The translations under genes and the position numbers were made by a program. Positions 4,719 through 24,075 of a DNA stretch of 64,000 nt are shown piece after piece. The notes beneath the pieces were generated by a model. It ran no database searches and was not told where the DNA came from. It saw only the letters and a list, made by a program, of their open reading frames with translations. Numbering within the stretch: position 1 is the stretch's first letter; the number at the start of each line of letters is the position of its first letter. The stretch lies in assembly GCA_937884605.1 (NCBI GenBank), contig CALGDM010000006.1:310001-374000 (forward strand). Reading direction: 5' to 3'. The DNA comes from an uncultured Spiribacter sp. (GTDB taxonomy: Bacteria > Pseudomonadota > Gammaproteobacteria > Nitrococcales > Nitrococcaceae).

Positions 4719-6835
4719 TTCGCGCTCCCTGATGATTCCACTAGGGGAAGTTGCCTCCCGCGCTCGAGAAGCCAGCGAAAGTCCTCGGCTTCCAGCGGCA
4801 CACTGTAATAAAAGCCCTGACCGAACTGAATGCCCATGGCCAGCAGTGCATCCCGTACGTCGGCGGTTTCGATGCCCTCGGCGATGATCTCTGCGTCGAG
4901 GGCGCGGGCGAGCCGCCGGACCGCTTCGACCAGATTCACGCTGAAGCTGTCCTGCGTCACCTGGCTGACGAATCCCTGGTCGATTTTGATTTCATCGAAC
5001 GGGTAATGCTGCAGGTAGAGCAGCGACGAGTAACCGGTACCAAAGTCATCCAGCGACAGGCGCACATTCATTTCACGCAGGACTCGCAATTGCTCGAGTA
5101 GCAGCGCTGACTCCTTGGCAAAAACGCTTTCGGTGATTTCCAGTGACAGCTGACAGGGTTCAATCCCCGACTCGTCGAGGATGGCCCGGACCCGCTCGGG
5201 GAAATGACCCGAGCGAAACTGCACCAGCGAGGCATTGACCGCAACGCGCACCAGATCCAGTCCCGCTTTGCGCCAGGCTCGCAGATGCTGGCAGGCGCGT
5301 CGCAGTGCCCAATCGCCGATCGGAGCGATGAGCTGGCTTTGCTCGGCGATGGGGATGAAAACGCCAGGCGAGATCAGCCCGCGAGTGGGATGATTCCAGC
5401 GCAGCAATGCCTCGGCGGACACCACCTCACCGGTGGCCATATCCACCTTCGGCTGGAAATGGACCTCGAACTCGTCATTTTGCAGCGCGCTGCGCAACTC
5501 TCGAGTCAGGCCGATTCGAGCCTGGGTTTCGGCCTCGAGCGACTCGCTGTAGGCGATCCAGGGCAGCGCTGACTCGGCACGGTGACGAAACAGCGCGCGC
5601 TCGGCCTCGCGCAGCAGGGTTTCGGCCGACCGTGGCGTGCGGTCGAGGTGGCTGCATCCCATCCTGATTGCGACATCAATCGCCACTCCGTCAAGCGCGA
5701 AGGGGCGCGACAGCCGTTCGATCAGATGCGCGAGCTGGGCCTCGGTGGACGTGTCCCGGGCGAGCTCGACATAGACTGCGCATTCATCGCCGCCGATACG
5801 GCCCGCCAGACTGGACTCGCCGGCTACCTCGAGCAGGCGCCGACTGAACTCCACCAGCAACCGGTCACCGCCCTCATAGCCGTAGGCATCGTTAATGTCC
5901 CGCAGACTGACGATATCGACCATCAGGACCACGCCGTTGTCGGGCCAGCCGTTGTCATCCAGCCAGCGCCGCAGTGCCTCGCTGAACCCGTTGCGTGTCG
6001 ATAATCCCGTTAATGGATCCTCCAGCACCGAGCTCGCGAGACTTTCCTGCGTGGCCCGCAGGGCGGCGGTATCCTGCTTGATGGCCACATAGTTGATGAT
6101 GGTCTGATCATCGTTCTCCAGTGGGGCAATCAACGTGTGCTCGCGGTAGGGATCGCCATTCTTGGGGCGGTTTTCGAGTTCGCCGACCCAAGTGTTGCCA
6201 GCCTCGACGGATTCCCAGATCTCCCGGTTGACCGTCTCGGGCGGGTTACCGGTGCTGAGGCGCGTCAGGGCGTCACCGACCAGCTCGTCGCGACGATAGC
6301 CAGAGCGGCGTTCAAATGCGGGATTGACGTATTCAATCTGCCCTTGGGTATCGGTGATGGCGATGGGCGCCGGATTGAGATGGGTGATCTGCATGAATTT
6401 GTGGACTTCATGCTCAAGTGAACGACGCTCGGTGATATCGGCGATAACGACCCCGACCTGAGTGCCGGGCCGGCCTGTGCCCTGCAGGGGGTGATAGCGG
6501 ACTTCGATCTCGCGCCATCCGAGAGTCGGGCTGTGGCGTTGCGTGCGATAGCCCTGGGGCTCGCCGGCCAGACAACGATCCAGCCTGTCTCGATAGAAGG
6601 TTTGGAAGGCTTCTTCACCCACTACTTCGGCAACATGGCGTCCTGGCAGGTCGTTGGCGGCTGCGCCATGAAGGCACTCGTAGGCGGCATTGACCCAGAC
6701 GTAGCAGTAATGATGATCGACAATCGCGCAGCCATTGTCGCTCGCCTCGAGTAGCGTGTGCAGATTGGTCTCATCGGGCATTCCATTGCGAGTGCCATCG
6801 ATGTCGGTCATGGGGTGATACGCCTGATCCTTCAT
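4703..6835 (-). CDS. PAS-PAS-GGDEF-EAL cyclic-di-GMP phosphodiesterase
   Basis: About 710 residues. Two PAS domains (about 25-140 and 150-260) precede a GGDEF domain (270-430) and an EAL domain (440-690). The GGDEF signature is GGDEC (348-352) and the metal-binding DxDxFK segment is degenerate (DIVSLRDIND), so cyclase activity is doubtful. The EAL domain has EALLRW (E475), NASLVQF, EITES, DDFGTG (596-601) and the catalytic Lys in EIKIDQGFV (about 617), so it should hydrolyse c-di-GMP. No membrane segment is seen: a cytoplasmic sensor. First gene of the kaiC-kaiB operon, overlapping kaiC. The start is uncertain: the ATG at 6835, another at 6811 and a TTG at 6880 all lack a good ribosome site. 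Confidence 0.9.
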   Translation of the reverse strand: MKDQAYHPMTDIDGTRNGMPDETNLHTLLEASDNGCAIVDHHYCYVWVNAAYECLHGAAANDLPGRHVAEVVGEEAFQTFYRDRLDRCLAGEPQGYRTQRHSPTLGWREIEVRYHPLQGTGRPGTQVGVVIADITERRSLEHEVHKFMQITHLNPAPIAITDTQGQIEYVNPAFERRSGYRRDELVGDALTRLSTGNPPETVNREIWESVEAGNTWVGELENRPKNGDPYREHTLIAPLENDDQTIINYVAIKQDTAALRATQESLASSVLEDPLTGLSTRNGFSEALRRWLDDNGWPDNGVVLMVDIVSLRDINDAYGYEGGDRLLVEFSRRLLEVAGESSLAGRIGGDECAVYVELARDTSTEAQLAHLIERLSRPFALDGVAIDVAIRMGCSHLDRTPRSAETLLREAERALFRHRAESALPWIAYSESLEAETQARIGLTRELRSALQNDEFEVHFQPKVDMATGEVVSAEALLRWNHPTRGLISPGVFIPIAEQSQLIAPIGDWALRRACQHLRAWRKAGLDLVRVAVNASLVQFRSGHFPERVRAILDESGIEPCQLSLEITESVFAKESALLLEQLRVLREMNVRLSLDDFGTGYSSLLYLQHYPFDEIKIDQGFVSQVTQDSFSVNLVEAVRRLARALDAEIIAEGIETADVRDALLAMGIQFGQGFYYSVPLEAEDFRWLLERGRQLPLVESSGSANWKNE

Positions 6836-6890
6836 GAGGTTTGATGTGATCAGAGTGCCTTGCTTGGCGCCGGCTGGCAAAGGAACCGGT

Positions 6891-6920: not shown

Positions 6921-7061
6921 TAAACAAGGCTGGATGCCTGATCGGGCAACTTTCCTCCCGCTAGACCGCATGGACTCCGTCTTTTCTGCTGCGCAGGCAC
7001 CAGCCCATGAACCGAATCCTTGAGACGGAATGGTCAAACGCAAGGAAAAAGGAGCATACGT

Positions 7062-8024
7062 ATGAATAAGCGTTCCCTATACGCTTTCGCATTGACCGGC
7101 GCGCTGGCCCCGATGGCTGCGAACGCCGAGTGCGGCGAGATTTCGGTCGCTGAGATGAACTGGACCTCGGGCGGCATCATCACCGGTGTTACCGAGTTTC
7201 TGCTGACGCAGGGCTACGGCTGTGATGTGACCGTGGTGCCGTCGGCGACGACCACTGCCATCACTTCGCTGGCGGAAAACAACGAGCCGGATATTGTTCC
7301 GGAGCTCTGGCCAAACGGTGCGCCGGCGTATTACGACCTTGCCGAACAGGGCAAAGTGGTCAAGGCTTCCGATGTCTTCAGCGAGGGCGCAACCGAGCAC
7401 TGGCTGGTGCCGGGCTTTCTGGTTGAAGAGCATCCGGAGCTTGCCACCGTCGAGGGGATTCTGAACAACCCGGAGCTGGTCGGCGGGCGCTTCCACAATT
7501 GCCCGGATGGCTGGGGTTGTCGCATTGCCAACGACTCGTTGGTTGAGGCGTTCGATCTGGAAGGTAACGGCATCGAAGTGTTCAACCATGGGTCGGGTGA
7601 GACCCTGCAGGCGGCGCTGGTCTCAGCCGCCGAAAATGAAGAACCCTACTTTGGCTATTACTGGGGCCCCACCGCGCCGCTGGGTCAGTACGACATGGTC
7701 AGTGTCGATATGGGACCGGTTGATCAGCAGGCCTATGAGTGCAACCAGGATGTCGACTGTAATGAGGTCGGTAAGACCGGTTGGCCGGCGGCTCCGGTGT
7801 TCAATGTGGTTACGAGCGATCTCGCCGAGCGCGAGCCGGAAGCCTTCGAGCTCATGCAGCATGTGACGTTCGAGAATGACACCATGAACGGGCTGCTGGC
7901 CTGGCATGCGGACAACAATGCCACCATCGACGAAGCCGTCGTGCACTTCCTGCAGAACAACAGTGACGTGTGGATGGACTGGGTGAGCGAAGATGCCCGC
8001 GCCAACCTCCAGGGTATGTTCTAG
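7062..8024 (+). CDS. Orphan glycine-betaine/proline-type ABC substrate-binding protein (OpuAC/ProX family)
   Basis: 320 residues. The ATG at 7062 follows AAGGAG; translation starts MNKRSLYAFALTGALAP and a signal peptidase site is likely after MAANA. The mature protein has OpuAC-type features: VAEMNWTSGGIITGVTEFLL, PELWPNGAPAYYDLAEQGKV and GYYWGPTAPLGQYDMV, rich in aromatic residues that form the quaternary-amine cage in this family. It contains several cysteines (CPDGWGC, CNQDVDC) that could form disulfides in the periplasm. No permease or ATPase gene is adjacent and a strong terminator follows, so it is monocistronic. The ligand could be glycine betaine, choline or a related osmolyte. Confidence 0.85.
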   Translation: MNKRSLYAFALTGALAPMAANAECGEISVAEMNWTSGGIITGVTEFLLTQGYGCDVTVVPSATTTAITSLAENNEPDIVPELWPNGAPAYYDLAEQGKVVKASDVFSEGATEHWLVPGFLVEEHPELATVEGILNNPELVGGRFHNCPDGWGCRIANDSLVEAFDLEGNGIEVFNHGSGETLQAALVSAAENEEPYFGYYWGPTAPLGQYDMVSVDMGPVDQQAYECNQDVDCNEVGKTGWPAAPVFNVVTSDLAEREPEAFELMQHVTFENDTMNGLLAWHADNNATIDEAVVHFLQNNSDVWMDWVSEDARANLQGMF

Positions 8025-9753: not shown

Positions 9754-9783
9754 TTGACAGGATGTGATGGCAGCTGCCATGTT
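9754..9783 (+). promoter_or_regulatory. Putative promoter of the sulfonate-type transport operon
   Basis: A perfect TTGACA at 9754-9759 is followed after 18 bases by CATGTT (9778-9783), a weak -10. The proposed -10 overlaps the left half of the LacI-type operator at 9780-9793, the geometry expected for repression. Pattern match only. Confidence 0.4.
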
Positions 9784-9793
9784 TGCGCTAACA
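9780..9793. promoter_or_regulatory. LacI-family operator 1 (transport operon)
   Basis: TGTTTGCGCTAACA is a 14-bp near-palindrome (TGTTTGC/GCTAACA) with the central GC of LacI/GalR operators. It shares the half-site GCTAACA with the site at 9881 and, on the other strand, with the site at 14710 beside the local LacI-family gene. Confidence 0.65.
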
Positions 9794-9880: not shown

Positions 9881-9894
9881 TGGTAGCGCTAACA
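9881..9894. promoter_or_regulatory. LacI-family operator 2 (transport operon)
   Basis: TGGTAGCGCTAACA is a 14-bp near-palindrome, 101 bases centre-to-centre from operator 1 and 55 bases before the permease start. Two spaced sites of this kind could act together by DNA looping. Confidence 0.65.
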
Positions 9895-9948: not shown

Positions 9949-10764
9949 ATGGGCGCTGAATCGTCCACGCCCCGCCCATCCCGTCGGCCATTCGGCCGCG
10001 CTGGCGCGACGGCCCTGCGCATCGCTCACTTTCTGGGGCCCTGGGCGCTGATTCTTGCGCTCTGGTATGGCGTTCGCTACTCGGGATTCTTCGAGGCCTC
10101 GCTGATTCCCACGCCGGTGCAGGTTGCCTCCCGGCTCTGGGAGATGCTGATTGGCGGCGATCTCGCGTGGGACATGTACATGTCAACTCAGCGCGTGTTT
10201 CTAGGCGTGATCCTCGGAACCGCCTGTGCCGTGCCCGTGGGCTTTCTGCTGGGCTGGTACAAGGGGCTTCGCTCGTTCATGGACCCGCTGATCAACTTCT
10301 TTCGAGCCCTCCCGCCGATCGCGTTGATCCCGCTGGTCATTGTCTACTTCGGGATCGGCGAATCCGCCAAAGTGATCATCCTGTTCTATGCGGCGTTCTT
10401 TGCCAGCGTCATCGTGATGTACGAGGGAATCAGCCAGATTTCACCGCTGTATATACGGGTCGCCCAGACCCTCGGGGCGAGTGATTCCGAAATATTCCGC
10501 AAGGTGATCATTCCCCTGGCCGTGCCGCATGCCCTGACAGCGCTGCGTGTGGCGCTGGGCGTGGCCTGGGCAACGCTGGTCGCCGCCGAGCTGGTGGCAG
10601 CGCAGCAGGGCCTGGGCGCCGTGATCCAGGATGCCTCCGCCTACTTCCAGCTTGACACCATCTATATGGGGATCATCTGCATCGGGTTTATCGCGCTGGC
10701 TATGGACGTTGCCCTGCGGCGACTCACCCGCCGCGCGCTTGTCTGGCAGGAACGCAATGATTGA
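9949..10764 (+). CDS. ABC transporter permease, NitT/TauT (TauC/SsuC) family
   Basis: 271 residues with about six membrane segments after a basic cytoplasmic N-terminus. The BPD-type permease EAA loop is at QTLGASDSEIFRKVIIP, the contact with the ATPase. The segments LINFFRALPPIALIPLVIVYFGIG and ELVAAQQGLGAVIQDAS are typical of TauC/SsuC permeases for sulfonates, nitrate or related anions. Preceded by AGGAGGAG and two LacI-type operators, it is the first gene of an operon with the ATPase, the binding protein and the dehydrogenase. Inner-membrane location; ligand unknown. Confidence 0.9.
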   Translation: MGAESSTPRPSRRPFGRAGATALRIAHFLGPWALILALWYGVRYSGFFEASLIPTPVQVASRLWEMLIGGDLAWDMYMSTQRVFLGVILGTACAVPVGFLLGWYKGLRSFMDPLINFFRALPPIALIPLVIVYFGIGESAKVIILFYAAFFASVIVMYEGISQISPLYIRVAQTLGASDSEIFRKVIIPLAVPHALTALRVALGVAWATLVAAELVAAQQGLGAVIQDASAYFQLDTIYMGIICIGFIALAMDVALRRLTRRALVWQERND

Positions 10765-10774
10765 GGGGGCCGCA

Positions 10775-11599
10775 ATGAGTCAGCACAACGAGAGAATCCG
10801 TTTCGAGAACGTCAGCAAGGTGTTCGACACCGACAATGGCTCCATTCAGGTCGCTGAGGACGTCTCCTTCGGCGTCGGTGACGGCGAGTTCGTCTCGCTG
10901 GTCGGGCCGTCCGGCTGCGGCAAAACCACCATGCTCAACATGGTGGCGGGGTTCATGCAGCCCACCACCGGGTCGGTGCTACTGGACGGAAATCCGATTC
11001 AAGGCCCTGGCTCGGAACGCGGGATGATGTTCCAGGATTATGGCGTGTTTCCGTGGCTAAGCGTCGAGGACAACATTGCCTTCGGCCTGCGTCTTCGTGC
11101 CAATCGCGTCAGCGAGGCGCGGCGTAAGGAAATTGTCGACCATTTCGTTGAGCTCATGGGCCTGACCGAATTCCGCCGGGCCTATCCCAAGACACTGTCG
11201 GGGGGCATGCGTCAACGACTTGCACTGGCGCGTTCCTATGCGGTCAACCCCGAGTTCCTTTTGATGGACGAGCCGTTCGGCGCCCTGGATGCCCAGACCC
11301 GTACGGCGATGCAGGATCTACTGCTGAATGTGATGGGTGAGGTTCGCAAGACCGTGATGCTCATCACCCATTCGGTCGAGGAGGCGCTGTATCTGTCCTC
11401 CCGGATTCTGGTCATCAGCGCACGCCCGTCGCGCATCCGTCGGATCATCGAGGTGCCGTTCGGATTTCCACGCACCGCCGAGCTGCGCGACTCCGCGGCC
11501 TTCGCCGATCTGCGCAGTGAGGTCCGCGAACTGGTGATGCAGGAATACGCCGCGCAGGAAAGCCAGGCGCGGCAGAAACAGACAACAGGACAGGCGTAG
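10775..11599 (+). CDS. ABC transporter ATP-binding protein, NitT/TauT (TauB/SsuB) family
   Basis: 274 residues. Walker A is GPSGCGKTT (44-52), the Q-loop region is MFQDYGVFPWLSV, the signature is LSGGMRQRLALAR and Walker B is FLLMDEPFGALDA, followed by the switch His in MLITHSVEEALYLS. FGALDAQTR and the short C-terminus are typical of TauB/SsuB/NrtD ATPases. The start at 10775 follows GAGGGGG; an alternative ATG at 10757 overlaps the permease stop. It energises the uptake system encoded on both sides. Confidence 0.93.
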   Translation: MSQHNERIRFENVSKVFDTDNGSIQVAEDVSFGVGDGEFVSLVGPSGCGKTTMLNMVAGFMQPTTGSVLLDGNPIQGPGSERGMMFQDYGVFPWLSVEDNIAFGLRLRANRVSEARRKEIVDHFVELMGLTEFRRAYPKTLSGGMRQRLALARSYAVNPEFLLMDEPFGALDAQTRTAMQDLLLNVMGEVRKTVMLITHSVEEALYLSSRILVISARPSRIRRIIEVPFGFPRTAELRDSAAFADLRSEVRELVMQEYAAQESQARQKQTTGQA

Positions 11600-11631
11600 A
11601 AAACGCCTCATTACCGCAAGAGGAGAGAGAG

Positions 11632-12645
11632 ATGAGCTATTCCAGCAGTCGCAGAAACTTCATGAAGGGGGTCGGTGCCGGTGCCGGCCTGTATGCCATG
11701 GGCGGCGTACCCAGCCTGTTTGCCCAGAGCCAGCAGACGGTACGCGTCGGCTACCTGCACACCCTGGCGGTGGATGGGCATATCTGGCTTGCCGACCACA
11801 TGGGCACGTGGGCCGAGCAGGGCCTCAATATGGAGTACATTCAGTTCACCACGGGTCTGGAGCTGTTCCAGGCGCTGGTCGGAGGCAGTCTTGACGTGCT
11901 TGCCACCGGTGCAGTGATTTCGAACTTCCCGGCGCGCGGTCAGGGTGAGGCCTTTCTGATCAACAACGTCGAGGAGGGCACGGCCCAGCTGTGGGCCGAT
12001 CCCGAATCCGGCATCAACGAGATCGCCGACCTCAAGGGCAAGCAGATCTCCACCACCACCGGTACCACAGCGCATGTGTTTTTGCACCGCGCACTGGTCG
12101 AGGCTGGACTGGATCCCGACCGGGATGTCGAGCTGGTCAATCAGCGCATGAGCGATGCGGTGACCTCGTTTATCTCCGGCGCGGTGCCGGCGGTGGCACT
12201 CTGGGTGCCCTTCAACGTTCAGGTGGCCCAGCAGCGGCCGTCGGCAAAAATGCTCGTCGACGCCTCGGCCTACTACCCCGAGGCCGCCATTGTCGGTGGC
12301 TGGGCCGCACGCGGCGACTTCTATCAGGAGAATCCGGCGGTCATCGACAAGATCATCCGCGGCTGGTTGCCGGCCAACGAAATGCTGGTCAATAACCCTG
12401 ACGAGGCGCTCGACATTCTCCAGTCCAACTACTACCCGAATGTCAGCCTCGACCAGCTTCAAGCGCAGTACGAGGCCCAAAGAGTGTTTTCGCGCGACGA
12501 GTGGCTGACGCGCTACGAAAACGGCACGGTCACCGAATGGCTTGACCAGGTCACCGACTTTTTCGTTGAGCAGGGGAATATCAGCAATCCCCGGCGCGCC
12601 AGCGACTACTTCCATCCGCAGCGCTACATCAGCATCGCGGGTTGA
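11632..12645 (+). CDS. ABC substrate-binding protein, NMT1/SsuA-TauA type, Tat-exported
   Basis: 337 residues. The N-terminus MSYSSSRRNFMKGVGAGAG carries a twin-arginine motif (SRRNFMKG) and the export signal ends near SLFAQS. The mature part follows the NMT1/SsuA pattern: VRVGYLHTLAVDGHIWLA, YIQFTTGLELFQALVGGSLDVLATGAV and DLKGKQISTTTGTT, a phosphate- or sulfonate-type anion cradle region. Tat export suggests folding, perhaps around a ligand, before secretion. Closely follows the ATPase gene after AGAGGAGAG. Related proteins bind taurine, alkanesulfonates, nitrate or thiamine precursors, so the ligand is unproven. Confidence 0.88.
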   Translation: MSYSSSRRNFMKGVGAGAGLYAMGGVPSLFAQSQQTVRVGYLHTLAVDGHIWLADHMGTWAEQGLNMEYIQFTTGLELFQALVGGSLDVLATGAVISNFPARGQGEAFLINNVEEGTAQLWADPESGINEIADLKGKQISTTTGTTAHVFLHRALVEAGLDPDRDVELVNQRMSDAVTSFISGAVPAVALWVPFNVQVAQQRPSAKMLVDASAYYPEAAIVGGWAARGDFYQENPAVIDKIIRGWLPANEMLVNNPDEALDILQSNYYPNVSLDQLQAQYEAQRVFSRDEWLTRYENGTVTEWLDQVTDFFVEQGNISNPRRASDYFHPQRYISIAG

Positions 12646-12651
12646 GCGGGC

Positions 12652-12682
12652 GCCGCCACCCCTCGATTGCAGGGGTGGCGGC
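12652..12682. other. Strong intercistronic hairpin
   Basis: A perfect 12-bp inverted repeat, GCCGCCACCCCT and AGGGGTGGCGGC, surrounds a 7-base loop between the binding-protein and dehydrogenase genes. No T-run follows at once; a short one (TTTTT) lies 14 bases on. Such structures after binding-protein genes usually protect the upstream mRNA or partly terminate transcription, raising binding-protein yield over downstream genes. Confidence 0.8.
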
Positions 12683-12713
12683 TTCAATACTCCAGTTTTT
12701 CAGGGAGAAAAAA

Positions 12714-13604
12714 ATGGGCGCGAGCGTCGGTTTTATTGGTGTCGGAACCATGGGCGGGCCGATGGCCCGCAATCTTCTGCGGGCCGGCCATCGGGTCCGC
12801 GTGTTTGATCTTGACTCGCAATTGCTTGCGGGGCTCGAAAAAGACGGAGCCGAAGTGGCCTCAAGTGCGGCTGCTGCCGCCTCAGGGGCTGATTGCGTGA
12901 TCACCATGCTGCCCCGGGGTGAGCATGTGGAGTCCGCGCTTTTTGGCGATCAGGGTGCGGCGGGTGCGATGGGTGATGGCGTGCTCTATATCGACATGAG
13001 CACGATTCTGCCGAGTCACTCCACGCGGTTCGCACAACGCCTGCAGGCTGCCGGTGTCGCCGTTGTTGATGCGCCGGTGGGGCGATCGTCGCAGCATGCC
13101 ATCGACGGTAAGCTTTTGATCATGGTCGGCGGCGAGACGGGCGATGTCGAACGGGCACGGGCATTTCTCGAGCCACTCGGCGACACCATCGTCCACTGCG
13201 GTCCGACCGGGGCCGGACAGAAGATGAAGCTGGTCAACAACTACATGTCGATCGCCCTCAATGCGCTGACCGCCGAAGCTCTGGTGATGGCGGAAAGTGC
13301 CGGCCTCGATCCCGAACAGGCCCGCAATGTGATGCTGGGCACAGTTGCCGGTCAGGGCCACATGGGAACGACCTATCCCGCGAAGGTCCTCAAGGGCGAT
13401 CTGACGCCCGGCTTCATGGTTGACCTGGCCCACAAGGATATGGGCCTGGCGCTGTCCATGGCTGGTGAGCTGGATGCCCCCGCCTGGCTGGGTGCCGTCG
13501 CCCATCAGACCTATGGCCTGGCCCGTCGGAACGGGCGCGGAGCCGAAGACTGGACGGCGGTGTACGCGGCGCTGCGCGAAACGGCGATGGGTGATGGGGG
13601 CTAG
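12714..13604 (+). CDS. Beta-hydroxyacid dehydrogenase, YihU (3-sulfolactaldehyde reductase)-like
   Basis: 296 residues. The NAD(P) motif is GVGTMG (9-14) and the catalytic lysine is K172 in MKLVNNYMSIALNAL. At the substrate loop it has APVGRSSQHAIDG (120-132), where E. coli YihU has a similar Val-Gly-Arg-Thr segment, while tartronate-semialdehyde and hydroxyisobutyrate enzymes carry Ser-Gly-Gly. Further likeness to YihU (from memory) is in GDLTPGFMVDLAHKDMG and GRGAEDWTAV. YihU interconverts 3-sulfolactaldehyde and 2,3-dihydroxypropanesulfonate. Assignment to that reaction is inference; a GarR/GlxR-type role remains possible. The ATG at 12714 follows AGGGAG; it is last in the transporter operon. 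Confidence 0.8.
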   Translation: MGASVGFIGVGTMGGPMARNLLRAGHRVRVFDLDSQLLAGLEKDGAEVASSAAAAASGADCVITMLPRGEHVESALFGDQGAAGAMGDGVLYIDMSTILPSHSTRFAQRLQAAGVAVVDAPVGRSSQHAIDGKLLIMVGGETGDVERARAFLEPLGDTIVHCGPTGAGQKMKLVNNYMSIALNALTAEALVMAESAGLDPEQARNVMLGTVAGQGHMGTTYPAKVLKGDLTPGFMVDLAHKDMGLALSMAGELDAPAWLGAVAHQTYGLARRNGRGAEDWTAVYAALRETAMGDGG

Positions 13605-13641
13605 ACGTTTTCCCCGACCGGATGGCGGCGCCCGGGGCCGT

Positions 13642-14667
13642 TCAGTCGGCTCGCCCGGCGGGCGTGGTCTCGCGCTCGATGATTTCGAACCCCAGGTCCG
13701 TCAGGTCGGGTGTCGTGGTATCGCCCCGCAACCGCTCGAGGATCATGCGTGCGGCCTGCCGGCCGATTTCGTAGCGGTGAATGCGTACGGTGGTGAGCGC
13801 CGGCGCGACACTGGCGGCCAGCTCCACATCATCGAAACCGGCAATAGCCAGATCCGCGGGCACTCGAATGCCCTGGCGCTGACACTCGAACAGCGCGCCC
13901 AGCGCGAGAATGTCGTTGCCGAAAAACACCGCATCGACATCCGGCCGCGTCGCCAGCAGGTCACGAAGCCGGCCCGCGCCGGCGGCAAACGAGAACTTGC
14001 CCTCAAAGACCAGCGAGTCGGAGGCCTCCAGCCCCAGTTTTGCCACCGCCGCGCGATAGCCGGCGACGCGCTGGGCGGCGCGGTCATTGGCCAGTGTCGG
14101 GGCACCGACATAGCCAATGCAGCGAGCGCCTCGCGCCACCAGGCGCTCGACCATGGCATGGCAGGCGTTGAAATTGGAAAACCCGACGGTCATGTCAATC
14201 GGCTGACCGTCAACATTCCAGGTTTCCACCACCGGAATCCCGGCCGCGCGCAGAAGGCTCTCGGCTGCCGGCTCGTGCTGCAGACCGGTGACGACGATGC
14301 CGGCGGGACGCTGGGCCAGGATGGCGTTGATCAGCCGGGTTTCCTCGGCGAGCGAATAGCCGGTTGCGCCCAGCAACAGCTGATAGCCCTGGGCGCCCAG
14401 TTCATCGGTCAATCCGTCGATGGTGTCGGCAAAGATCGAGTTGGTCACGGTGGGCACGAGCGCGCCGATGATGCGGGTCTGATTGGAGGCCAGACTGCCG
14501 GCGACCCGATTGGGCACGTAGCCCGTGGTCTCGATTGCCTTGAGGACCCGCTCGCGCGTGGCATCGGCGACCTTGTCGGGATGGTGAATCACCCGAGAAA
14601 CGGTGATGGCCGACACGCCGGCCACCTGCGCGACGTCTTCCATGCGAGCGGGCGAGTGTTGGTCCAT
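13642..14667 (-). CDS. LacI/GalR-family transcriptional regulator
   Basis: 341 residues. The N-terminal helix-turn-helix and hinge are visible as MEDVAQVAGVSAITVSRVIHHP and YVPNRVAGSLAS. The rest is a periplasmic-binding-protein-like effector domain (IIGALVPTVTNSIFADTI, GNDILALGALFECQRQGI, IAGFDDVELA), closest in feel to GntR-type gluconate repressors. The start at 14667 (MDQHSPARMED) follows AGGGAAG. It lies between the transporter/dehydrogenase operon and the divergent aldehyde dehydrogenase operon, with a matching operator in its own upstream region and two before the transporter genes. It is therefore the likely repressor of both operons and of itself. Effector unknown. Confidence 0.92.
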   Translation of the reverse strand: MDQHSPARMEDVAQVAGVSAITVSRVIHHPDKVADATRERVLKAIETTGYVPNRVAGSLASNQTRIIGALVPTVTNSIFADTIDGLTDELGAQGYQLLLGATGYSLAEETRLINAILAQRPAGIVVTGLQHEPAAESLLRAAGIPVVETWNVDGQPIDMTVGFSNFNACHAMVERLVARGARCIGYVGAPTLANDRAAQRVAGYRAAVAKLGLEASDSLVFEGKFSFAAGAGRLRDLLATRPDVDAVFFGNDILALGALFECQRQGIRVPADLAIAGFDDVELAASVAPALTTVRIHRYEIGRQAARMILERLRGDTTTPDLTDLGFEIIERETTPAGRAD

Positions 14668-14709
14668 AACGCGGCGCTTCCCTGACAGCCTCTTTAATTT
14701 CAAGCGCGA

Positions 14710-14723
14710 TGTTAGCGCTTTCA
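14710..14723. promoter_or_regulatory. LacI-family operator 3 (regulator/aldehyde dehydrogenase divergent region)
   Basis: TGTTAGCGCTTTCA is a 14-bp near-palindrome, 12 of 14 positions symmetric, with the central GC of LacI/GalR sites. Together with 9780 and 9881 it forms a set sharing the half-site TGTTAGC/GCTAACA. It lies 33 bases before the aldehyde dehydrogenase start and 42 before the regulator start, so it could control both. Confidence 0.7.
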
Positions 14724-14756
14724 ACATTATATTTGGAAATCACAGGAGTCCAGCTG

Positions 14757-16205
14757 ATGTACACATTCGGATCATTCATTAATGGCGAGTGGCAGGGCGG
14801 CACCGGCGAGGTGTTTGAAACCTTTGACCCGAGTGCCCCCGGGACCTGCGTGGGGCGCTATTCGCCGACTTCGCCGCAGGGACTCCGCACCGCCCTTGAC
14901 GCTGCCCGCAGCGGTCAGACCGAGTGGGCAGCGCTGCCGCCCGCCGAGCGGAGCCGGCGGGTGGTGGAGTTGCTCGATGCCGTTGAGGCACAGACCGAGG
15001 AGATTGCCCGTGCTGTCACCCTCGAGCAGGGCAAGCCAATTGCCGAGTCTCGGGGCGAGACCGGCAAGGCGCTGCGCGAGGCGCGTTTCATGGCCGGCGA
15101 GGCGGTGCGGGGCCACAGTGAGGTGATGCCGGCGCAAAAGCCCGATTGCCGCAATATGGTGCTGCGCCGGCCGCGCGGCGTCATCGCCGCCATTACCCCC
15201 TGGAACTTCCCCATCCTCACGCCCATGCGCAAGATTGCGCCGGCGCTTGCTCATGGCAATGCCATCATTCTCAAGCCCTCCGAGCTGACGCCGGCATCGG
15301 CCTGTCTGATCGCCGAAGCGGCCGAGGATCTTCTGCCTGCCGGCGTGCTGCAGATCGTCCATGGCGGAGGCGAAGTTGGGGCAGCGCTGGTTGGCGATGC
15401 GGCGGTGGACGGCGTGACCTTCACCGGATCCGTGGCGACCGGTCGCAGGATCTATGCCGCGGCCGCGCAGAACCTTGCCGAGCTGTCGCTGGAGCTGGGC
15501 GGCAAGAACGCGGTCATCATCAATGACACCGATGACCTCGAGCGCTGCCTTGATCAGGTTTTTGGCGCGGCCTGCCAATGTGCGGGCCAGCGATGCACCG
15601 CAATCAGTCGCGTGATTGTTGCCGACGCCCTCCATGACGCCGTCATCGACGGGCTCAGGGCGCGGGCGCAGGCTCAGGTGATGGGGGCTGGCATCGATCC
15701 GGCAACCACGCTGGGTCCGCTCATCAATCAGGATCAGTTCGACCGGGTCAGCGGCTTTGTCGAGCGTGCCATCGAGGCGGGCGCCGACGTGGTGGCTGGC
15801 GGCACGGCGATGCCGGTCGCCAGCGCGCCGGACGGGTTCTTCTACCCGGCAACGATCCTGCGTGCCGTGGAACCCTCCATGGAGGTTGCTCGCGAAGAAG
15901 TCTTCGGGCCGGTAATCAGCGTCATGCGCTATTCGGATTTTGACACGGCCATGTCCCTGCTCAATGATGTCGATTACGGTCTGACTTCGTCGCTGTTCTC
16001 CAATGACTCGGCGCTGATCCAGCGGTTTCTCGACGAAAGCCAGAACGGCATGCTGCACGTCAATCACGGCACCATTCCCGACGACCATATGCCGTTTGGC
16101 GGGATCCGCCACTCGGGTGTGGGCGCCTACTCGGTGGGCCCGTCGGCGGTCAACTTCTACACCACCGAGCATTCGGCCTACCTGCAGTCCCCCGGTGGCG
16201 TCTGA
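14757..16205 (+). CDS. NAD(P)-dependent semialdehyde/aldehyde dehydrogenase (GabD-like)
   Basis: 482 residues of the ALDH superfamily. Catalytic Cys280 is in CAGQRCTAISR, general-base Glu246 in LELGGK and Asn150 in ITPWNFP. Lys173 (ILKPSE) marks the cofactor site. Its best resemblance is to succinate- and ketoglutarate-semialdehyde dehydrogenases; the sulfolactaldehyde dehydrogenase of the sulfo-Entner-Doudoroff pathway is also GabD-like. Given the YihU-like neighbour, oxidation of sulfolactaldehyde to sulfolactate is a reasonable but untested guess. It starts after AGGAG, has operator 3 upstream, and its TGA overlaps the next ATG by one base. Confidence 0.88.
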   Translation: MYTFGSFINGEWQGGTGEVFETFDPSAPGTCVGRYSPTSPQGLRTALDAARSGQTEWAALPPAERSRRVVELLDAVEAQTEEIARAVTLEQGKPIAESRGETGKALREARFMAGEAVRGHSEVMPAQKPDCRNMVLRRPRGVIAAITPWNFPILTPMRKIAPALAHGNAIILKPSELTPASACLIAEAAEDLLPAGVLQIVHGGGEVGAALVGDAAVDGVTFTGSVATGRRIYAAAAQNLAELSLELGGKNAVIINDTDDLERCLDQVFGAACQCAGQRCTAISRVIVADALHDAVIDGLRARAQAQVMGAGIDPATTLGPLINQDQFDRVSGFVERAIEAGADVVAGGTAMPVASAPDGFFYPATILRAVEPSMEVAREEVFGPVISVMRYSDFDTAMSLLNDVDYGLTSSLFSNDSALIQRFLDESQNGMLHVNHGTIPDDHMPFGGIRHSGVGAYSVGPSAVNFYTTEHSAYLQSPGGV

Positions 16206-17362
16206 TGGGCATGCCGGCGCTGACCACGGGACGGATCGAGCGGGTGGCCCTGCACGTCCTGCGGGCCCCCATTGCGGAGCCAGTGCGCACATCGTTTGGG
16301 ACCATGACCGATCGACCCAGCGTGCTGGTGGGGATAAGCGATCACGAGGGGGCCTGCGGCTGGGGCGAAATCTGGTGCAACTACCCGGTTTGCGGGGCCG
16401 AGCATCGGGCCCGGCTGGCCGCCGAAGTGGTGGCGCCGCATCTGGTGGGAAAATCGTTCGATCATCCCGCTGCCGCGCAGCGCTTTCTGACCCAGGCCAC
16501 CCGGGTGCTGGCGCTGCAAACCCGCGAGTTCGGACCGCTTGATCAGATCCTGGCAGGCTTTGATATCGCGCTCTGGGATCTGGCCGCCCGCCGTCAGGAT
16601 CGCCCGCTTGGCGAGGTCCTGGCCGGTCGGCCGGTAACCTCCCGGGTACCGGTCTATGCCAGCGGCATCAATCCGCAGGGCGCGGTTACCACCCTGCAGC
16701 GGGCGCGGGAATCGGGTTTTGATGCCTTCAAGGTCAAGATCGGGTTCGGGGCCGCGCAGGATCGGCAGACGATTGCCGCGCTGGTCGCCGAGCGGGGCGA
16801 TGGTGAGCGTTTGATGGCGGATGCCAATCAGGCCTGGTCACTCGAGGAGGCCCGGGCGATGGTGACCGATCTGCAGGACAGCGGGCTCGATTGGCTTGAA
16901 GAGCCGATGCCGGTGGATACCCCGGCGACTGACTGGCAGGCGCTGGCGGCATGCTCCGCGATTCCGCTCGCCGGCGGCGAAAACCTGGCTTCGAGCGCCG
17001 CATTTGATGCGGCGGCTGAGGCCGGATGGCTGTCAGTAATCCAGCCGGATCTGGCCAAGTGGGGCGGGTTCAGCGCCTGTCTGCCCATCGCCCGCCGAGT
17101 GCTCGAGGCGGGACGGCGTTACTGCCCGCACTATCTGGGTGGCGGCATTGGCCTGATTGCCTCAGCGCATGCCCTGGCGGCCGTGGGCGGAGACGGGCGG
17201 CTGGAGGTCGACTGCAATCCCAATCCTCTGCGTGAGCAACTGGTAACGCCGTTTCCGGCCATTGCCAACGGCGCAATGGCGCTGCCACCGGGGTCCGGTC
17301 TGGGGGTCGTCCCGGATTGGCCGATGGTGCGTGAGTGGGAGACGCTATGCCTGAACGTCTGA
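16205..17362 (+). CDS. Enolase-superfamily enzyme, mandelate racemase/acid-sugar dehydratase subgroup
   Basis: 385 residues with a capping domain (1-140) and a TIM barrel. Catalytic positions of the mandelate-racemase subgroup are all visible: KVK (176-178), metal ligands D206 (ADAN), E232 (LEEP) and E259 (GGEN), and the Asp-His dyad D282 (QPDL) with H309 (CPHYLGGG). Such enzymes remove the proton alpha to a carboxylate and usually eliminate a beta leaving group. The substrate is unknown: an acid sugar or, by context, a sulfonated hydroxyacid. Translationally coupled to the dehydrogenase upstream (TGATG) and to SulP downstream (16-base overlap). Confidence 0.88.
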   Translation: MGMPALTTGRIERVALHVLRAPIAEPVRTSFGTMTDRPSVLVGISDHEGACGWGEIWCNYPVCGAEHRARLAAEVVAPHLVGKSFDHPAAAQRFLTQATRVLALQTREFGPLDQILAGFDIALWDLAARRQDRPLGEVLAGRPVTSRVPVYASGINPQGAVTTLQRARESGFDAFKVKIGFGAAQDRQTIAALVAERGDGERLMADANQAWSLEEARAMVTDLQDSGLDWLEEPMPVDTPATDWQALAACSAIPLAGGENLASSAAFDAAAEAGWLSVIQPDLAKWGGFSACLPIARRVLEAGRRYCPHYLGGGIGLIASAHALAAVGGDGRLEVDCNPNPLREQLVTPFPAIANGAMALPPGSGLGVVPDWPMVREWETLCLNV

Positions 17363-19077
17363 TCCGCCTGCTGCCGTTTCTCGGCACCTGGCCCGCCCTC
17401 GGGCGTCGCCAAATGCTTGCCGATCTGCGCGCCGGGCTGACCGGCGCGATTATTGTGCTGCCCCAGGGGGTGGCCTATGCGCTCATCGCCGGTCTACCCG
17501 CCCAGTACGGGCTCTATACGGCGATCATCCCGCCGGTGATCGCCGGGCTGTTCGGCTCGTCGCATCATCTGGTCTCGGGGCCAACCGCGGCGATCTCGAT
17601 TGTGGTGTTCAGCGTGGTCAGCGGTATCGTCCCGCCCGAGCATCCGGCGTTTCTGTCCTACGTTCTGACGTTGACCTTCATGGTCGGCGTGATCCAGCTG
17701 ATGCTGGGGGTCGCGCGAGTGGGGACGCTGGTCAACTTTATCCCGCACACGGTGGTGGTGGGATTTACCGCCGGAGCGGCGGTGGTGATTGCGGTCAGTC
17801 AGGTGCACCACTTTCTGGGCATTCGCCTGGAGGCCGGGTACGGTCTGGTCGATCGTGTCCAGGCGATTACCGGCGCTCTGCCGGCCACCGAGCCGCCTGC
17901 CGTGTTGATCGGCGGCGTCACGCTGGCCACGGCGCTGGTGGTTCGAGCGTATCGCCCGCACTGGCCGGTTCTGCTCAGCGCCATGGCAGTGGGCACCGGC
18001 GTTGGCGCGCTTTCAGGTGGCGCTGCCGCGGGCGTGCAGATGGTGGGTGCAACCCCCGGCGCCTTGCCGCCGCCATCGTTCGATCTCATTGCCTTCGAGC
18101 GCATGCCCGAGCTGGCCTCCGGGGCACTGGCGGTCGCCATGATCGCTCTGATCGAGGCGGTGGCCATTGCCAAAGCCGTGGGGATGCGTTCTCACCAGCG
18201 CATTGACGGGAGTCAGGAGTTTATCGGTCAGGGGCTCTCCAACCTCATTGGCAGTCTGTTCTCGTGCTATGCCGCCTCGGGATCGTTCACCCGCACCGGG
18301 GCCAACTATGACGCCGGTGCAAGAACGCCGGTTGCCGGTATTTTTGCGGCGGCATTCGTGCTGGCGGTCATTGTCTGGCTGCCGGGTGTCACCGGGTATC
18401 TGCCCATGCCGGCGATGGCCGCGGTGGTCTTCGTGATTGCCTGGAACCTGATCGACTGGCACCGCCTGCGCGATATCGTGCGGGCAAGCCGCGAGGAAAC
18501 CGCCATTCTCGTCGTGACGGTGCTGGCCACGCTCTTCCTCGGGCTCGAGTTTGCCATTTATGTGGGCGTTTTCCTGTCCCTGCTTTTGTTTCTCAAGCAC
18601 AGCGCACGGCCGCGCCTGGTCAGTGTCGTGCCATTGACTGATCGGCCCGGGCGTCCGCTGCGAAACGCCCATAAACGCGGACTGGCGGAATGCCCGCAAG
18701 TGCTGATTCTGCGTGTGGATGGCCCGCTTTTCTTTGGATCGCTGGATCATGTCCGCGAGGGCTTGTGGGCGGCCTGCGACCGCGGCTTCGACCATGTGAT
18801 CATCGATGGCAGTGCGGTCGAGCGCGTCGATCTTGCCGCCGCCGAAATGCTGGCGCAGGAGAGCGAGCGCATGCGCCAGCGTGGCGGCGGGCTCTGGCTA
18901 TGCGGGTTCAAGGATGACGCCCTCATGCTTTTGTGCCACCCGGTACTGCGCGACCGGATTGGCGAGCAACACTTGTTCAGTCGCGCCGAGGATGCCATCG
19001 CCGCAGTCTTTGAACAGACGCCGTTGTGTGATGCCTGCCAGCGCGAGGGCGCCACGGTCTGCCGGTTGCTGCGCTGA
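17347..19077 (+). CDS. SulP-family anion transporter with STAS domain
   Basis: 576 residues. The SulP signature GAIIVLPQGVAYALIAGLPAQYGLYTA occupies about 30-58, split here by position only; ten or more membrane segments follow to about residue 415. A C-terminal STAS domain (about 450-555) has GPLFFGSLDHV and VIIDGSAVERVDLAAAEML. SulP proteins carry sulfate, bicarbonate or dicarboxylates. It is the third gene of the aldehyde dehydrogenase operon, overlapping the enolase-family gene, so a role in moving the pathway's substrate or its sulfate product is plausible. The extra C-terminal CDACQREGATVC tail with two cysteines is unusual. Confidence 0.9.
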   Translation: MPERLIRLLPFLGTWPALGRRQMLADLRAGLTGAIIVLPQGVAYALIAGLPAQYGLYTAIIPPVIAGLFGSSHHLVSGPTAAISIVVFSVVSGIVPPEHPAFLSYVLTLTFMVGVIQLMLGVARVGTLVNFIPHTVVVGFTAGAAVVIAVSQVHHFLGIRLEAGYGLVDRVQAITGALPATEPPAVLIGGVTLATALVVRAYRPHWPVLLSAMAVGTGVGALSGGAAAGVQMVGATPGALPPPSFDLIAFERMPELASGALAVAMIALIEAVAIAKAVGMRSHQRIDGSQEFIGQGLSNLIGSLFSCYAASGSFTRTGANYDAGARTPVAGIFAAAFVLAVIVWLPGVTGYLPMPAMAAVVFVIAWNLIDWHRLRDIVRASREETAILVVTVLATLFLGLEFAIYVGVFLSLLLFLKHSARPRLVSVVPLTDRPGRPLRNAHKRGLAECPQVLILRVDGPLFFGSLDHVREGLWAACDRGFDHVIIDGSAVERVDLAAAEMLAQESERMRQRGGGLWLCGFKDDALMLLCHPVLRDRIGEQHLFSRAEDAIAAVFEQTPLCDACQREGATVCRLLR

Positions 19078-19175: not shown

Positions 19176-20321
19176 ATGAAAGCGTTTTCAACAAGAATTG
19201 CCATTCTAACGGGGCTATTGCTGGGGTTACCGGCCGTGGGCGGCACCCAGACCAGTGAGTCGGATTTTGCGCCGGATAATCCGGATCTCGCCGTGGCGAC
19301 ATTTGCCGGCGGGTGCTTCTGGTGCGTCGAGGCGTATTACGAGAAAAACGTCCCCGGTGTGGTCGAGGCCGTCTCCGGCTACAGCGGCGGCGAGGTGGAA
19401 AACCCCACCTACGAGGCAGTCTCCGGCGGGCGCACGGACCACACCGAAGCCGTGCAGGTCTATTATGACCCGACGGAAATGACCTACGAAGGGTTGCTCG
19501 AGGGACTGTGGCGGACCGCTGATCCAACGGATACCGAGGGTCAGTACGTCGATCGGGGTCAGCAGTATCGGCCGGCGATCTTCTATCACGATGCGGCCCA
19601 GAAACGCGCTGCCGAGGCGTCGATCGAGGCCCTCGACGCCTCCGGACGCTATGACGAGCCGGTCGCCATCGAAGTGGTGCCATTTGACGCTTTCTACGAA
19701 GCCGAGGCGCGTCATCAGGATTACTACAAGGAGAGCCCGGTTCGCTACCGGCTGTATACATTCAACTCCGGGCGTTATCAGTTCATCGAGGAGATCTGGG
19801 GCGATGATCAGGAAGTTGATTTCTCGCAATATCAGCCGCAACGCCAGTCGCAAGCCGTGTCGGTGGAAGGATTCGATCCGGCAACCTTCGAAAAGCCGCC
19901 CGAGGCGCTTTTGCAATCGCAGCTGACCGAAGAGCAGTACTACGTGACCCAGGAGGACGGCACCGAGCCTGCCTACGATAACCCGTACTACGATGAAAAA
20001 CGCCCGGGGATCTACGTGGATGTGGTCTCAGGCGAGCCGCTGTTCTCCTCGCGCGACAAGTACCGCTCCGACACTGGCTGGCCCAGCTTTACCCAGCCCA
20101 TCCGGGAGGAGGCCGTGGTGGAGCGTGAGGACAACAAGCTGTTCATGACACGCACCGAGATCCGTAGTCGGCACGCCGATTCCCACTTGGGTCATGTATT
20201 CAGCGATGGTCCGGACCCGACCGGGCTGCGCTACTGCATGAACTCCGCCGCGCTCGAATTCATCCCGCTTGAGGAGATGGAAGCGGCGGGCTACGGGTCA
20301 CTGATCAGCGAAGTCAAATAG
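19176..20321 (+). CDS. msrAB: Periplasmic bifunctional methionine sulfoxide reductase MsrA-MsrB fusion
   Basis: 381 residues. A signal sequence (about 1-23) precedes an MsrA domain with GGCFWC (C47, C50), and an MsrB domain from about 230 with [20 protein letters not shown] and active-site C354 in RYCMNSAAL. The MsrB half lacks the four zinc-binding cysteines: the usual CxxC positions read DVVS and SRHA. MsrA reduces S- and MsrB R-methionine sulfoxide, repairing oxidised proteins. Export implies action in the periplasm and a need for external electron donors, not seen nearby. Starts after AAGGGAAG. Confidence 0.93.
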
Positions 20322-21074: not shown

Positions 21075-22367
21075 ATGACCTCGCCTGTTGATGACCTCCG
21101 CGCGCTTTTTGCGGCAGGGGTGGAGGCCGCGGATCCAGCACGAGTGGTCCCCGCTCATCGGCCCGAGGGCCCCGGACAATACTGGGTGGTCGGTGCCGGT
21201 AAGGCAGCGGCCGCGATGGCAAAGGCCCTTGAGGACCATTGGCCGATGGATCGGCCGCCGCCCCGCGGCATTGTCGTGACCCGCTATGGGCATGGTCTGG
21301 ATCTTCGCCACATCGAGTGCATCGAGGCGTCGCATCCGGTCCCTGATGCCGCCGGCCAGGCGGCGGCGCAACGGCTATTCGAGCTTGCCCAGTCACTGCA
21401 GGCGAGTGACCATCTGGTGGTCTTGCTCTCCGGGGGTGGGTCCGCCCTTTTGTCCCTGCCGGCGACAGGCCTGCGGCTCGAGGACAAGCAAGTGCTCTCG
21501 GAGTCCTTGCTGCGCTGCGGAGCCGATATCGGCGAGATCAATTGCGTGCGCAAGCACCTCTCGGCGATCAAGGGCGGGCAGCTTGCGGTGGCCGCCTCAC
21601 CGGCGCGGGTGAGCAGTCTGATCATCTCGGATGTCGTGGGCGATGACCCCACCACCATTGCATCGGGACCGACAGCCGCGGATCCCACCACGCTCGCGGA
21701 TGCCCGTGAGGTGCTGTCGCGCTATGGCATTGCCGTGCCGCCGGCGGTGCAACGGCACCTTGCCAATCCGGCCGCCGAAACCCCCAAGCCGGGAGATACG
21801 CGCCTTGCGGGCGTTGACAATCAGCTAATCGCAACGCCTCAGGCCTCGCTCGAGGCGATGGCGGTATGCGCCCGCTCGCGGGGCATTACCCCCATCATTC
21901 TGGGCGACGCCATCGAGGGCGAAGCGCGCGAGGTGGGTCGGGTCATGGCCGGCATTGCGCGTCAGGCAGCCCGTCATCATCAGCCCGCCGCGCCGCCCTG
22001 CGTGCTCTTGTCCGGCGGTGAGACATCGGTGACCGTGCGTGGCGGCGGGCGGGGCGGGCGCAATCTCGAGTTCCTGCTGGGGCTTGCCATTGCCCTCGAC
22101 GGTGCCGAATCGGTCTATGCGCTGGCCGGTGACAGCGATGGCATCGATGGGAGCGAGGACAATGCCGGCGCGATCGTCACGCCGGCCACGCTTGCTCGGG
22201 CCCACGAGGCTGGCCTGGACCCCCGCGATCGGCTCGCCGACAACGACGGCTATGGCTTTTTCGCCGCCCTGGATGACCTGGTGGTCACCGGTCCCACACG
22301 CACCAATGTCAACGATCTGCGCGCCATTCTGATTGCCGGACCGCCCGCTCAGCCGGATAGCCAGTAA
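21075..22367 (+). CDS. Glycerate 2-kinase, MOFRL family
   Basis: 430 residues of the DUF4147/MOFRL class. N-terminal landmarks are WVVGAGKAAAAMAKAL, the conserved GIVVTRYGHG and the loop LLSGGGSALLSLP; the C-terminal MOFRL domain has VLLSGGETSVTV, GGGRGGRNLEFLL and DGIDGSEDNAGAIV. The enzyme phosphorylates D-glycerate to 2-phosphoglycerate, feeding lower glycolysis; older annotations call it hydroxypyruvate reductase. It could drain glycerate made by acid-sugar or C3 metabolism coded upstream. Its 3' end overlaps the convergent exporter gene by 19 bases. Confidence 0.9.
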   Translation: MTSPVDDLRALFAAGVEAADPARVVPAHRPEGPGQYWVVGAGKAAAAMAKALEDHWPMDRPPPRGIVVTRYGHGLDLRHIECIEASHPVPDAAGQAAAQRLFELAQSLQASDHLVVLLSGGGSALLSLPATGLRLEDKQVLSESLLRCGADIGEINCVRKHLSAIKGGQLAVAASPARVSSLIISDVVGDDPTTIASGPTAADPTTLADAREVLSRYGIAVPPAVQRHLANPAAETPKPGDTRLAGVDNQLIATPQASLEAMAVCARSRGITPIILGDAIEGEAREVGRVMAGIARQAARHHQPAAPPCVLLSGGETSVTVRGGGRGGRNLEFLLGLAIALDGAESVYALAGDSDGIDGSEDNAGAIVTPATLARAHEAGLDPRDRLADNDGYGFFAALDDLVVTGPTRTNVNDLRAILIAGPPAQPDSQ

Positions 22368-23377: not shown

Positions 23378-23442
23378 GACAGATGTCCGGTGGCATTCAT
23401 GGGGGCGCAGCATAGCGAAGTCGGTGTGTATCATCGACGCCC

Positions 23443-24075
23443 ATGACCATCGAACTCGCGGATCTGACGCTCTATGCAGGTGCCCTTCTGGTGTTGTTTC
23501 TAACGCCGGGACCGGTGTGGCTGGCGCTGCTCGCACGCACGCTTTCGGGCGGATTCGCGGCCGCGCTGCCGCTTGCCCTTGGTGTTGTGGTGGGGGATCT
23601 TCTCTGGCCGCTGGCGGCCATCCACGGCCTGAGCTGGGTGGTGGCGGCCTACGATGAAACGCTGGTGATATTGCGCTGGGTGGCGGCGCTTTTGTTCGCC
23701 GCGATGGGCCTGCAGTTGATCCGGCATGCCGACCGCGCCATTGTGGCCGACCGTCGGCTCACGCGTCCCGGCTTCTGGCCGGGATTCAGTGCCGGACTGG
23801 CGGCGATTCTGGGCAATCCCAAGGCCGTACTGTTCTATCTGGGGCTGCTGCCCGGTTTTTTCGATCTCGGCAGGCTGACAGGACCGGATATCGGTGTGAT
23901 TGTCGCGGTCTCGATGGTGATTCCGTTTCTGGGGAATATGATCTTTGCGGTGGGCATCGATCGGCTGCGGCGCCTGATCCAGTCGCCTGCGGCATTAAAG
24001 CGGGTCAATCAGCTCGCCGGGCTGCTATTGATCGTGGTGGGGGTGGTCATCGGGCTGCCGTCGCTGTACGAATAA
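23443..24075 (+). CDS. LysE/RhtB-family amino-acid exporter
   Basis: 210 residues with five to six membrane segments. The N-terminal [20 protein letters not shown] matches the LysE/RhtB proline-glycine signature, and [25 protein letters not shown] the central family segment, here cited in part. These inner-membrane proteins export amino acids and derivatives such as homoserine or threonine. It is divergent from the exporter on the other strand with a 65-base gap, and followed by queF after 38 bases. Substrate unknown. Confidence 0.86.

Follow-up and report, generated by a model that had tools for sequence, protein, structure and literature searches.

A predicted C3-sulfonate regulon in an uncultured Spiribacter, with an enolase-superfamily protein as candidate sulfolactate sulfolyase

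Gene content and predicted control of the locus

Within a window of 64,000 nucleotides from an uncultured Spiribacter sp. (assembly GCA_937884605.1, contig CALGDM010000006.1, positions 310,001 to 374,000), positions 9949 to 19077 carry a gene cluster whose substrate is most likely the C3-sulfonate 2,3-dihydroxypropane-1-sulfonate (DHPS). An enolase-superfamily protein encoded there, called ENO below, is the leading candidate for the C-S lyase otherwise missing, a point that an earlier note on this DNA did not make. The source genome is a 91% complete draft of 1.80 Mb in 30 contigs; other genomes of the genus in the collection range from 1.2 to 2.2 Mb. All reading frames across the locus are intact. 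Genes for a TauC/SsuC-type ABC permease (9949–10764; PRK10160 169.7 bits, under the cut-off of 342), a TauB/SsuB-type ABC ATPase (10757–11599, start approximate), an NMT1/SsuA-type substrate-binding protein (11632–12645) and a YihU-like dehydrogenase (12714–13604) lie on the + strand, as do those for an aldehyde dehydrogenase (ALDH; 14757–16205), ENO (16205–17362) and a SulP transporter (17347–19077). The stop codon of the ALDH gene overlaps the ENO start (TGATG), and the ENO and SulP genes overlap by 16 bases. Only the gene for a LacI-family regulator (13642–14667, start approximate) is on the − strand, divergent from the ALDH gene. Every gene named in the earlier note was found in its place, although its "two divergent operons" do not stand, as both catabolic operons are on the + strand.

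A palindrome, TGTTAGCGCTAACA, is present at both promoters. Three LacI-type operators on the + strand conform to it: TGTTTGCGCTAACA at 9780–9793, 5' of the tauC-like gene and with the same position class in four relatives; TGGTAGCGCTAACA at 9881–9894, 101 bases past the first; and TGTTAGCGCTTTCA at 14710–14723, between the lacI and ALDH genes. With up to two mismatches allowed, the window holds three such sites against 0.07 expected, and the whole genome also holds three, all at the locus (two 5' of the permease gene and one between lacI and ALDH). We compared this genome (G000) with G013 of the same genus, G015 and G016 of the same family and G035 of the same order; the four relatives have the same three-site layout, with the pair spaced by 88–113 bases. 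The five genomes contain 3, 4, 3, 3 and 3 sites respectively, and 15 of the 16 are at the locus, the one extra site lying elsewhere in G013. The same pattern read backwards gives 4, 2, 1, 7 and 3 matches, and the regulon argument therefore rests on the position of the sites and not on their number. Judged from these sites, the LacI-family protein probably controls both operons through the three operators, so that the tauABC-yihU, lacI and ALDH-ENO-SulP genes are predicted to form one regulon; a dedicated regulator with two sites placed upstream would be in keeping with a pathway for one substrate.

The tauABC-yihU-lacI-ALDH-ENO order is kept in all five genomes, with SulP beside ENO in four of them, and because the gene set is conserved throughout, the locus is more than a chance assembly. 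Its distribution in the genus is patchy: among 14 genomes, this one included, a close ENO occurs only here and in G013 (88% identity), and the other 12 have a best ENO-like protein of at most 34% identity, or none.

The binding protein passes the NMT1 model PF09084 (55.3 bits) and, as the earlier note had it, carries a Tat signal (TIGR01409 19.6 bits, cut-off 16.7). It lies near no tested sulfonate binder. The SulP protein scores 383.5 bits with TIGR00815, just over the cut-off of 380.45. Elsewhere in the window, and all on the − strand, are a second SulP-family gene (31963–33456), a TSUP/TauE-family gene (1940–2680; PF01925 114 bits) 7 kb from the locus, and a gene of the YeiH/UPF0324 type (22349–23536), which we take to be the "putative sulfate exporter" family and which has a homolog near an ENO gene at another locus (L084).

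The two dehydrogenases and the search for a known lyase

The YihU-like enzyme passes the curated sulfolactaldehyde (SLA) 3-reductase model NF012005 with 355.3 bits (cut-off 348) and stays well under the cut-offs of the other models, among them GarR (230.7 bits against 340.75) and HIBADH (226.1 against 291.6). Its best solved-structure match is the SLA reductase 6sm7, at 276.5 bits with the next at 162.9, and it is 47% identical to Escherichia coli YihU over 289 residues. Alignment bears out the YihU-like substrate loop claimed earlier: it reads APVGRSS, where E. coli YihU has VPVGRTS, GarR has APVSGGE and HIBADH has APVSGG, the last two with the Ser-Gly-Gly of GarR-type enzymes. Both the GR[ST]S loop and the NNYMSIALN segment of E. 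coli YihU are retained. An LG+G4 tree of 16 sequences, in which the HIBADH labels are database annotations, splits GarR, GlxR and two HIBADHs from YihU and the window enzyme with 93% ultrafast bootstrap, placing the latter outside the GarR/GlxR or HIBADH clade, membership of which the earlier note had named as fatal to a sulfonate substrate. We assign the enzyme to the YihU family and suggest that it runs in the DHPS-oxidising direction, in which it would differ from E. coli YihU; a further difference is that no sulfo-Embden-Meyerhof-Parnas (sulfo-EMP) genes lie beside it. One further beta-hydroxyacid dehydrogenase was found in the genome with PF14833.

With the ALDH, no NCBIfam model for GabD or succinate-semialdehyde dehydrogenase (SSADH) reaches its cut-off (PRK11241 302.6 of 828 bits; SSADH 317.8 of 646), and the best PDB matches are phenylacetaldehyde and other ALDHs. 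For RlGabD, Arg171 and Arg289 are proposed as the sulfonate-binding pair in a section of PMC10599462; counting from the numbering given there, the first Arg is kept (nine residues past the Trp of Trp-Asn-Phe) and the second, six residues before the catalytic Cys, is replaced by Gln. The label "GabD-like" is consequently withdrawn. The same ALDH subfamily (51–93% identity) occurs at 14 ENO loci, that in the window and 13 others, and from its gene position we infer that the enzyme acts as an SLA dehydrogenase.

Three routes from sulfolactate, through SuyAB, Xsc or CuyA, are described in PMC11382572. In the five genomes we found no match to a SuyB protein query (0/5) or to PF04295 (SuyB, UxaA/GarD-type; 0/5), no Xsc over cut-off (0/5; weak thiamine-diphosphate-dependent relatives exist), no CuyA-type TIGR01275 protein over cut-off (0/5; weak pyridoxal-phosphate-dependent relatives exist) and no glycyl-radical PFL-like PF02901 domain (0/5). 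One of these genomes, G013, is a single contig and 99% complete. What the earlier note had said of the window, that it lacks SuyAB, Xsc and CuyA, thus extends to the full genome and to the four relatives, within the sensitivity of these searches. A match to the sulfite oxidase domain PF00174 reached only 24.3 bits in the source genome and was rejected. Together with the SLA-reductase model and the tree, these searches support the idea that the locus serves a C3-sulfonate and has no C-S lyase of a described kind.

ENO as candidate lyase and the neighbourhoods of its relatives

ENO has the two Pfam domains PF02746 and PF13378 and the mandelate-racemase-type fold of the enolase superfamily, and is the only enzyme of the locus otherwise without a role. 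Residues K176, K178, D206, E232, E259, D282 and H309 are invariant in all 90 full-length ENO proteins; we take them to comprise a KxK motif, three acidic metal ligands and a D-H dyad, with K178 and H309 presumably the candidate bases on opposite faces of the active site. The closest solved structure is PDB 3ddm, an MR/MLE protein of Bordetella bronchiseptica released in 2008 whose entry title names the family only and no substrate; sugar-acid dehydratases are common among the solved relatives. A tree of ambiguous rooting did not recover ENO as monophyletic against 12 control relatives.

A pathway can be proposed from these parts. The ABC transporter would import DHPS, the YihU-like enzyme would oxidise it to SLA and the ALDH would convert SLA to 3-sulfolactate. 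With its Mg2+ site and mandelate-racemase base set, ENO would then abstract the proton at the alpha carbon of sulfolactate, adjacent to its carboxylate, and drive off the sulfite held by the beta carbon; the enolpyruvate so formed would become pyruvate, and SulP would export sulfite or sulfate. Sulfolactate is favoured as the ENO substrate because the sulfoglycolytic and DHPS routes meet at SLA and sulfolactate, and because the ENO reaction calls for a proton alpha to a carboxylate; in the enediolate formed from sulfolactate, the leaving group at the beta carbon is sulfite. Taken as a whole, a C3-sulfonate regulon that leads from DHPS through SLA to sulfolactate, with ENO as the sulfite-eliminating lyase, seems to us moderately probable. 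It resembles known DHPS and sulfolactate mineralisation (HpsNOP or SLA dehydrogenase with SuyAB) in its intermediates and in its series of importer, dehydrogenases, lyase step and exporter, and differs in the absence from the window locus of any SuyAB, Xsc or CuyA-type gene over cut-off, in a YihU-type enzyme and a non-GabD ALDH in place of HpsN and GabD, and in ENO as the lyase.

The same C3-sulfonate genes could also end at sulfolactate, excreted through SulP as the end product, with ENO confined to a side reaction such as by-product salvage. Excretion of sulfolactate by many sulfoglycolytic bacteria is mentioned in portions of PMC12890257 and PMC10599462, and the substrate of SulP is itself a prediction. 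Conversion of DHPS to sulfolactate alone gives no carbon, however, and ENO is translationally coupled to the ALDH and is the constant partner across differing contexts, so that we think such an outcome very improbable.

With our own profiles we scanned the neighbourhoods of 92 ENO genes out to about 10 kb, the relatives listed being the best 80 of 475 and L045 being left out as a duplicate of L042. The neighbours include tauABC-type importers (36), ALDH (29), LacD with PfkB (14), TctA (12), IlvD with HpcH (7), HpsN (3), SuyB (1) and true YihU (6, after candidates at L052, L055 and L076 fell on the GarR/HIBADH side of the tree and were dropped), the exporter-type families TSUP (9), SulP (6) and YeiH (3), and ClC (9), GMC oxidoreductase (42), sulfatase-type genes (25) and FGE (11). 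Seven Bradyrhizobium loci (L038, L094, L096, L098, L103, L104 and L107) share a GMC oxidoreductase, a ClC channel, FGE and a sulfatase-type gene. Counting any importer, TSUP, SulP, YeiH, HpsN, YihU, SuyB or sulfatase as a sulfur marker, 61 of the 92 loci have one (49 without sulfatases), compared with 0 of 12 loci of relatives at 27–32% identity (Fisher p = 9e-6, with related loci treated as independent).

Individual arrangements point the same way. A Desulfobacteraceae metagenome-assembled genome (MAG; L049) has the order hpsN-SDR-ADH-ENO-TctC-TctA, its HpsN scoring 585.6 bits with sulfopropanediol 3-dehydrogenase against 242 with histidinol dehydrogenase; at L048 HpsN also lies beside ENO (398 against 270.5 bits), in a genome without SuyB and without Xsc over cut-off. 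Rhizobial loci combine a sugar ABC transporter, PfkB, LacD, SDR, ENO and TSUP. The one kinase tested (L040) matches sulfofructose kinase at 219.9 bits, followed by the "sugar kinase" 2rbc at 156.8 and ribokinase at 88.1. The LacD-like aldolases (L040 8111–9157, L037 6665–7711) match 8tnf, a "DUF2090 domain-containing protein", best at 482.6 bits and YihT at 69, and the sugar-binding protein of these clusters matches 5iai best (98.4 bits), SmoF being fourth (68 bits). Neither a YihT orthology of the aldolase nor sulfoquinovose as the ligand of the binding protein was adopted. ENO is directly 5' of a TSUP exporter in the kinase and LacD clusters L037, L039, L040, L093 and L097, and neither SuyB nor Xsc was found in the genomes of the last two. 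YihU and ALDH occur with tauABC at the window locus and at L121. The Sulfitobacter locus L033, with a tripartite tricarboxylate transporter (TTT), LysR, TSUP and ENO, is a minimal "sulfolactate in, sulfite out" arrangement; a passage of PMC5812351 has the TTT system SlcHFG importing sulfolactate.

These contexts bear on the view that the locus serves a sugar acid or other non-sulfonate hydroxyacid, in which case ENO would be a dehydratase of the usual sort and the importer of sulfonate type a false clue. The dehydratases among its solved relatives would suit it, as would the binding protein, which is not close to a tested sulfonate binder, and the seven IlvD/HpcH clusters, which may be either sulfo-Entner-Doudoroff-like (sulfo-ED-like) or ordinary sugar-acid clusters. 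The YihU assignment, the HpsN and sulfofructose-kinase-like neighbours in other lineages, the exporters, and the lack of sulfur markers at the 12 distant loci argue against it, and we hold it to be quite unlikely.

More weight attaches to ENO as a cofactor-free sulfolactate racemase interconverting the S and R forms, one protein in place of SlcC and ComC, with some other unrecognised enzyme cutting the C-S bond. The mandelate-racemase-type residue set, with K178 and H309 as presumed bases on both faces, is consistent with this. In 54 genomes or records, selected to favour isolates and loci with clear context, 19 have SuyB (at least 58% identity), counting the record from which the query came; as the literature gives SuyAB as (R)-specific, ENO may be a racemase. 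At L057 (Chelativorans petroleitrophicus), SuyAB-like genes are found no more than 10 kb from ENO, together with a separate SfcF-like enolase, a lactonase and an HpcH aldolase, and PMC12421959 names this species as a carrier of sulfofucose genes. This sulfofucose-type cluster would be expected to make S-sulfolactate, and its gene set suits ENO as a racemase, or as a second lyase for the other enantiomer. Against a racemase, 35 of the 54 lack SuyB; Xsc is over cut-off in 13, and 29 have neither, where a racemase alone would be useless. ENO also adjoins TSUP exporters in genomes without SuyB (L093 and L097). We consider this explanation unlikely.

ENO was also considered as a sulfosugar-acid dehydratase like SfcF, the sulfogalactonate dehydratase of sulfofucolysis, which (PMC12421959) shares the enolase-superfamily domains PF02746/PF13378 and acts on a sulfonated acid. 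This was rejected: the L057 cluster encodes its SfcF-like protein apart from the adjoining ENO, with 26.6% identity between these two L057 proteins, and DHPS-type clusters involve no sugar acid.

A fumarase-I-like subunit pair may be another candidate sulfolactate lyase. On a plasmid of bacterium NT-25 (L130, 1–10523) it lies with a YihU-like reductase, GabD, a TRAP transporter and TauE and YeiH exporters, no ENO or SuyAB being annotated in the 17 kb; its small subunit shares 82% identity with a counterpart next to TSUP-ENO in Sulfitobacter L033 (10654–12306), and a pair also occurs at L051 (2494–4145). Fumarate/tartrate genes with a TauE homolog are induced on sulfofucose, according to a section of PMC12421959. 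The pair was rejected as the lyase of the window genome, PF05683 being absent from G000 and G013 and present in 14 of the 17 genomes searched.

Some genes flanking the locus were read by eye. A KaiC-like ATPase gene overlaps a PAS-GGDEF-EAL gene at 3036–6880 (−), a ProX/OpuAC-like binding protein gene at 7020–8024 (+) is just 5' of the locus and retained in G013, and a fused MsrA-MsrB gene at 19176–20321 (+) directly follows SulP, in the same order in G013.

Weighing the lyase and its meaning

Several observations weigh against ENO as a sulfolactate lyase. Beyond the SuyB-containing genomes and the L057 cluster, HpsN yields R-sulfolactate and SLA from sulfoglycolysis S-sulfolactate (as stated in part of PMC11382572), and therefore a single ENO must accept both or differ by clade. 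The binding protein scores 132.9 bits with SsuA_fam, short of the 163.5 cut-off for TauA/SsuA sulfonate-binding proteins; SulP members also transport bicarbonate or dicarboxylates, and SulP is lacking at the G015 locus; and the ALDH has the Gln noted above. No sulfur marker was found at 31 of the 92 ENO loci (43 if sulfatases are not counted), and the GMC oxidoreductase and sulfatase-type neighbours have no explanation here. The activity itself, release of pyruvate and sulfite from sulfolactate, is a prediction from residues and contexts; with all this weighed, we lean towards it somewhat.

Catabolism of DHPS and sulfolactate is already known; this gene combination and cleavage enzyme were not found in print, and the C-S cleavage step appears to fall to an enzyme family with no such known role. 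Our search of the open-access PMC literature found no report of an enolase-superfamily sulfolactate lyase; portions of a 2026 review (PMC12890257) name SuyAB as the sulfolactate-cleaving enzyme, and in one survey cleavage was screened through SuyAB, SlcC and ComC (PMC13372026).

Extended to the family, our proposal, which we put forward as fairly probable, is that ENO enzymes, which bear no relation to SuyAB, act as sulfolactate sulfolyases and are spread over alpha-, beta- and gammaproteobacteria and deltaproteobacterial MAGs. In the absence of SuyAB, Xsc and CuyA they would complete DHPS oxidation and sulfo-EMP/ED-type sulfosugar breakdown within a single cell. If confirmed, this would be a new activity for the enolase superfamily; a fold of sugar-acid dehydratases would also be seen for the second time to expel sulfite instead of water, SuyAB with its likeness to altronate dehydratase being the first; the rhizobial sulfo-EMP cluster would gain its last step and the crystal structure 3ddm a function. 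Sulfolactate and DHPS rank among the main currencies of organosulfur, and SuyAB, Xsc or CuyA are the only markers by which surveys look for cleavage of sulfolactate. If ENO does cleave sulfolactate, genomes now read as those of sulfolactate excreters would belong to full mineralisers.

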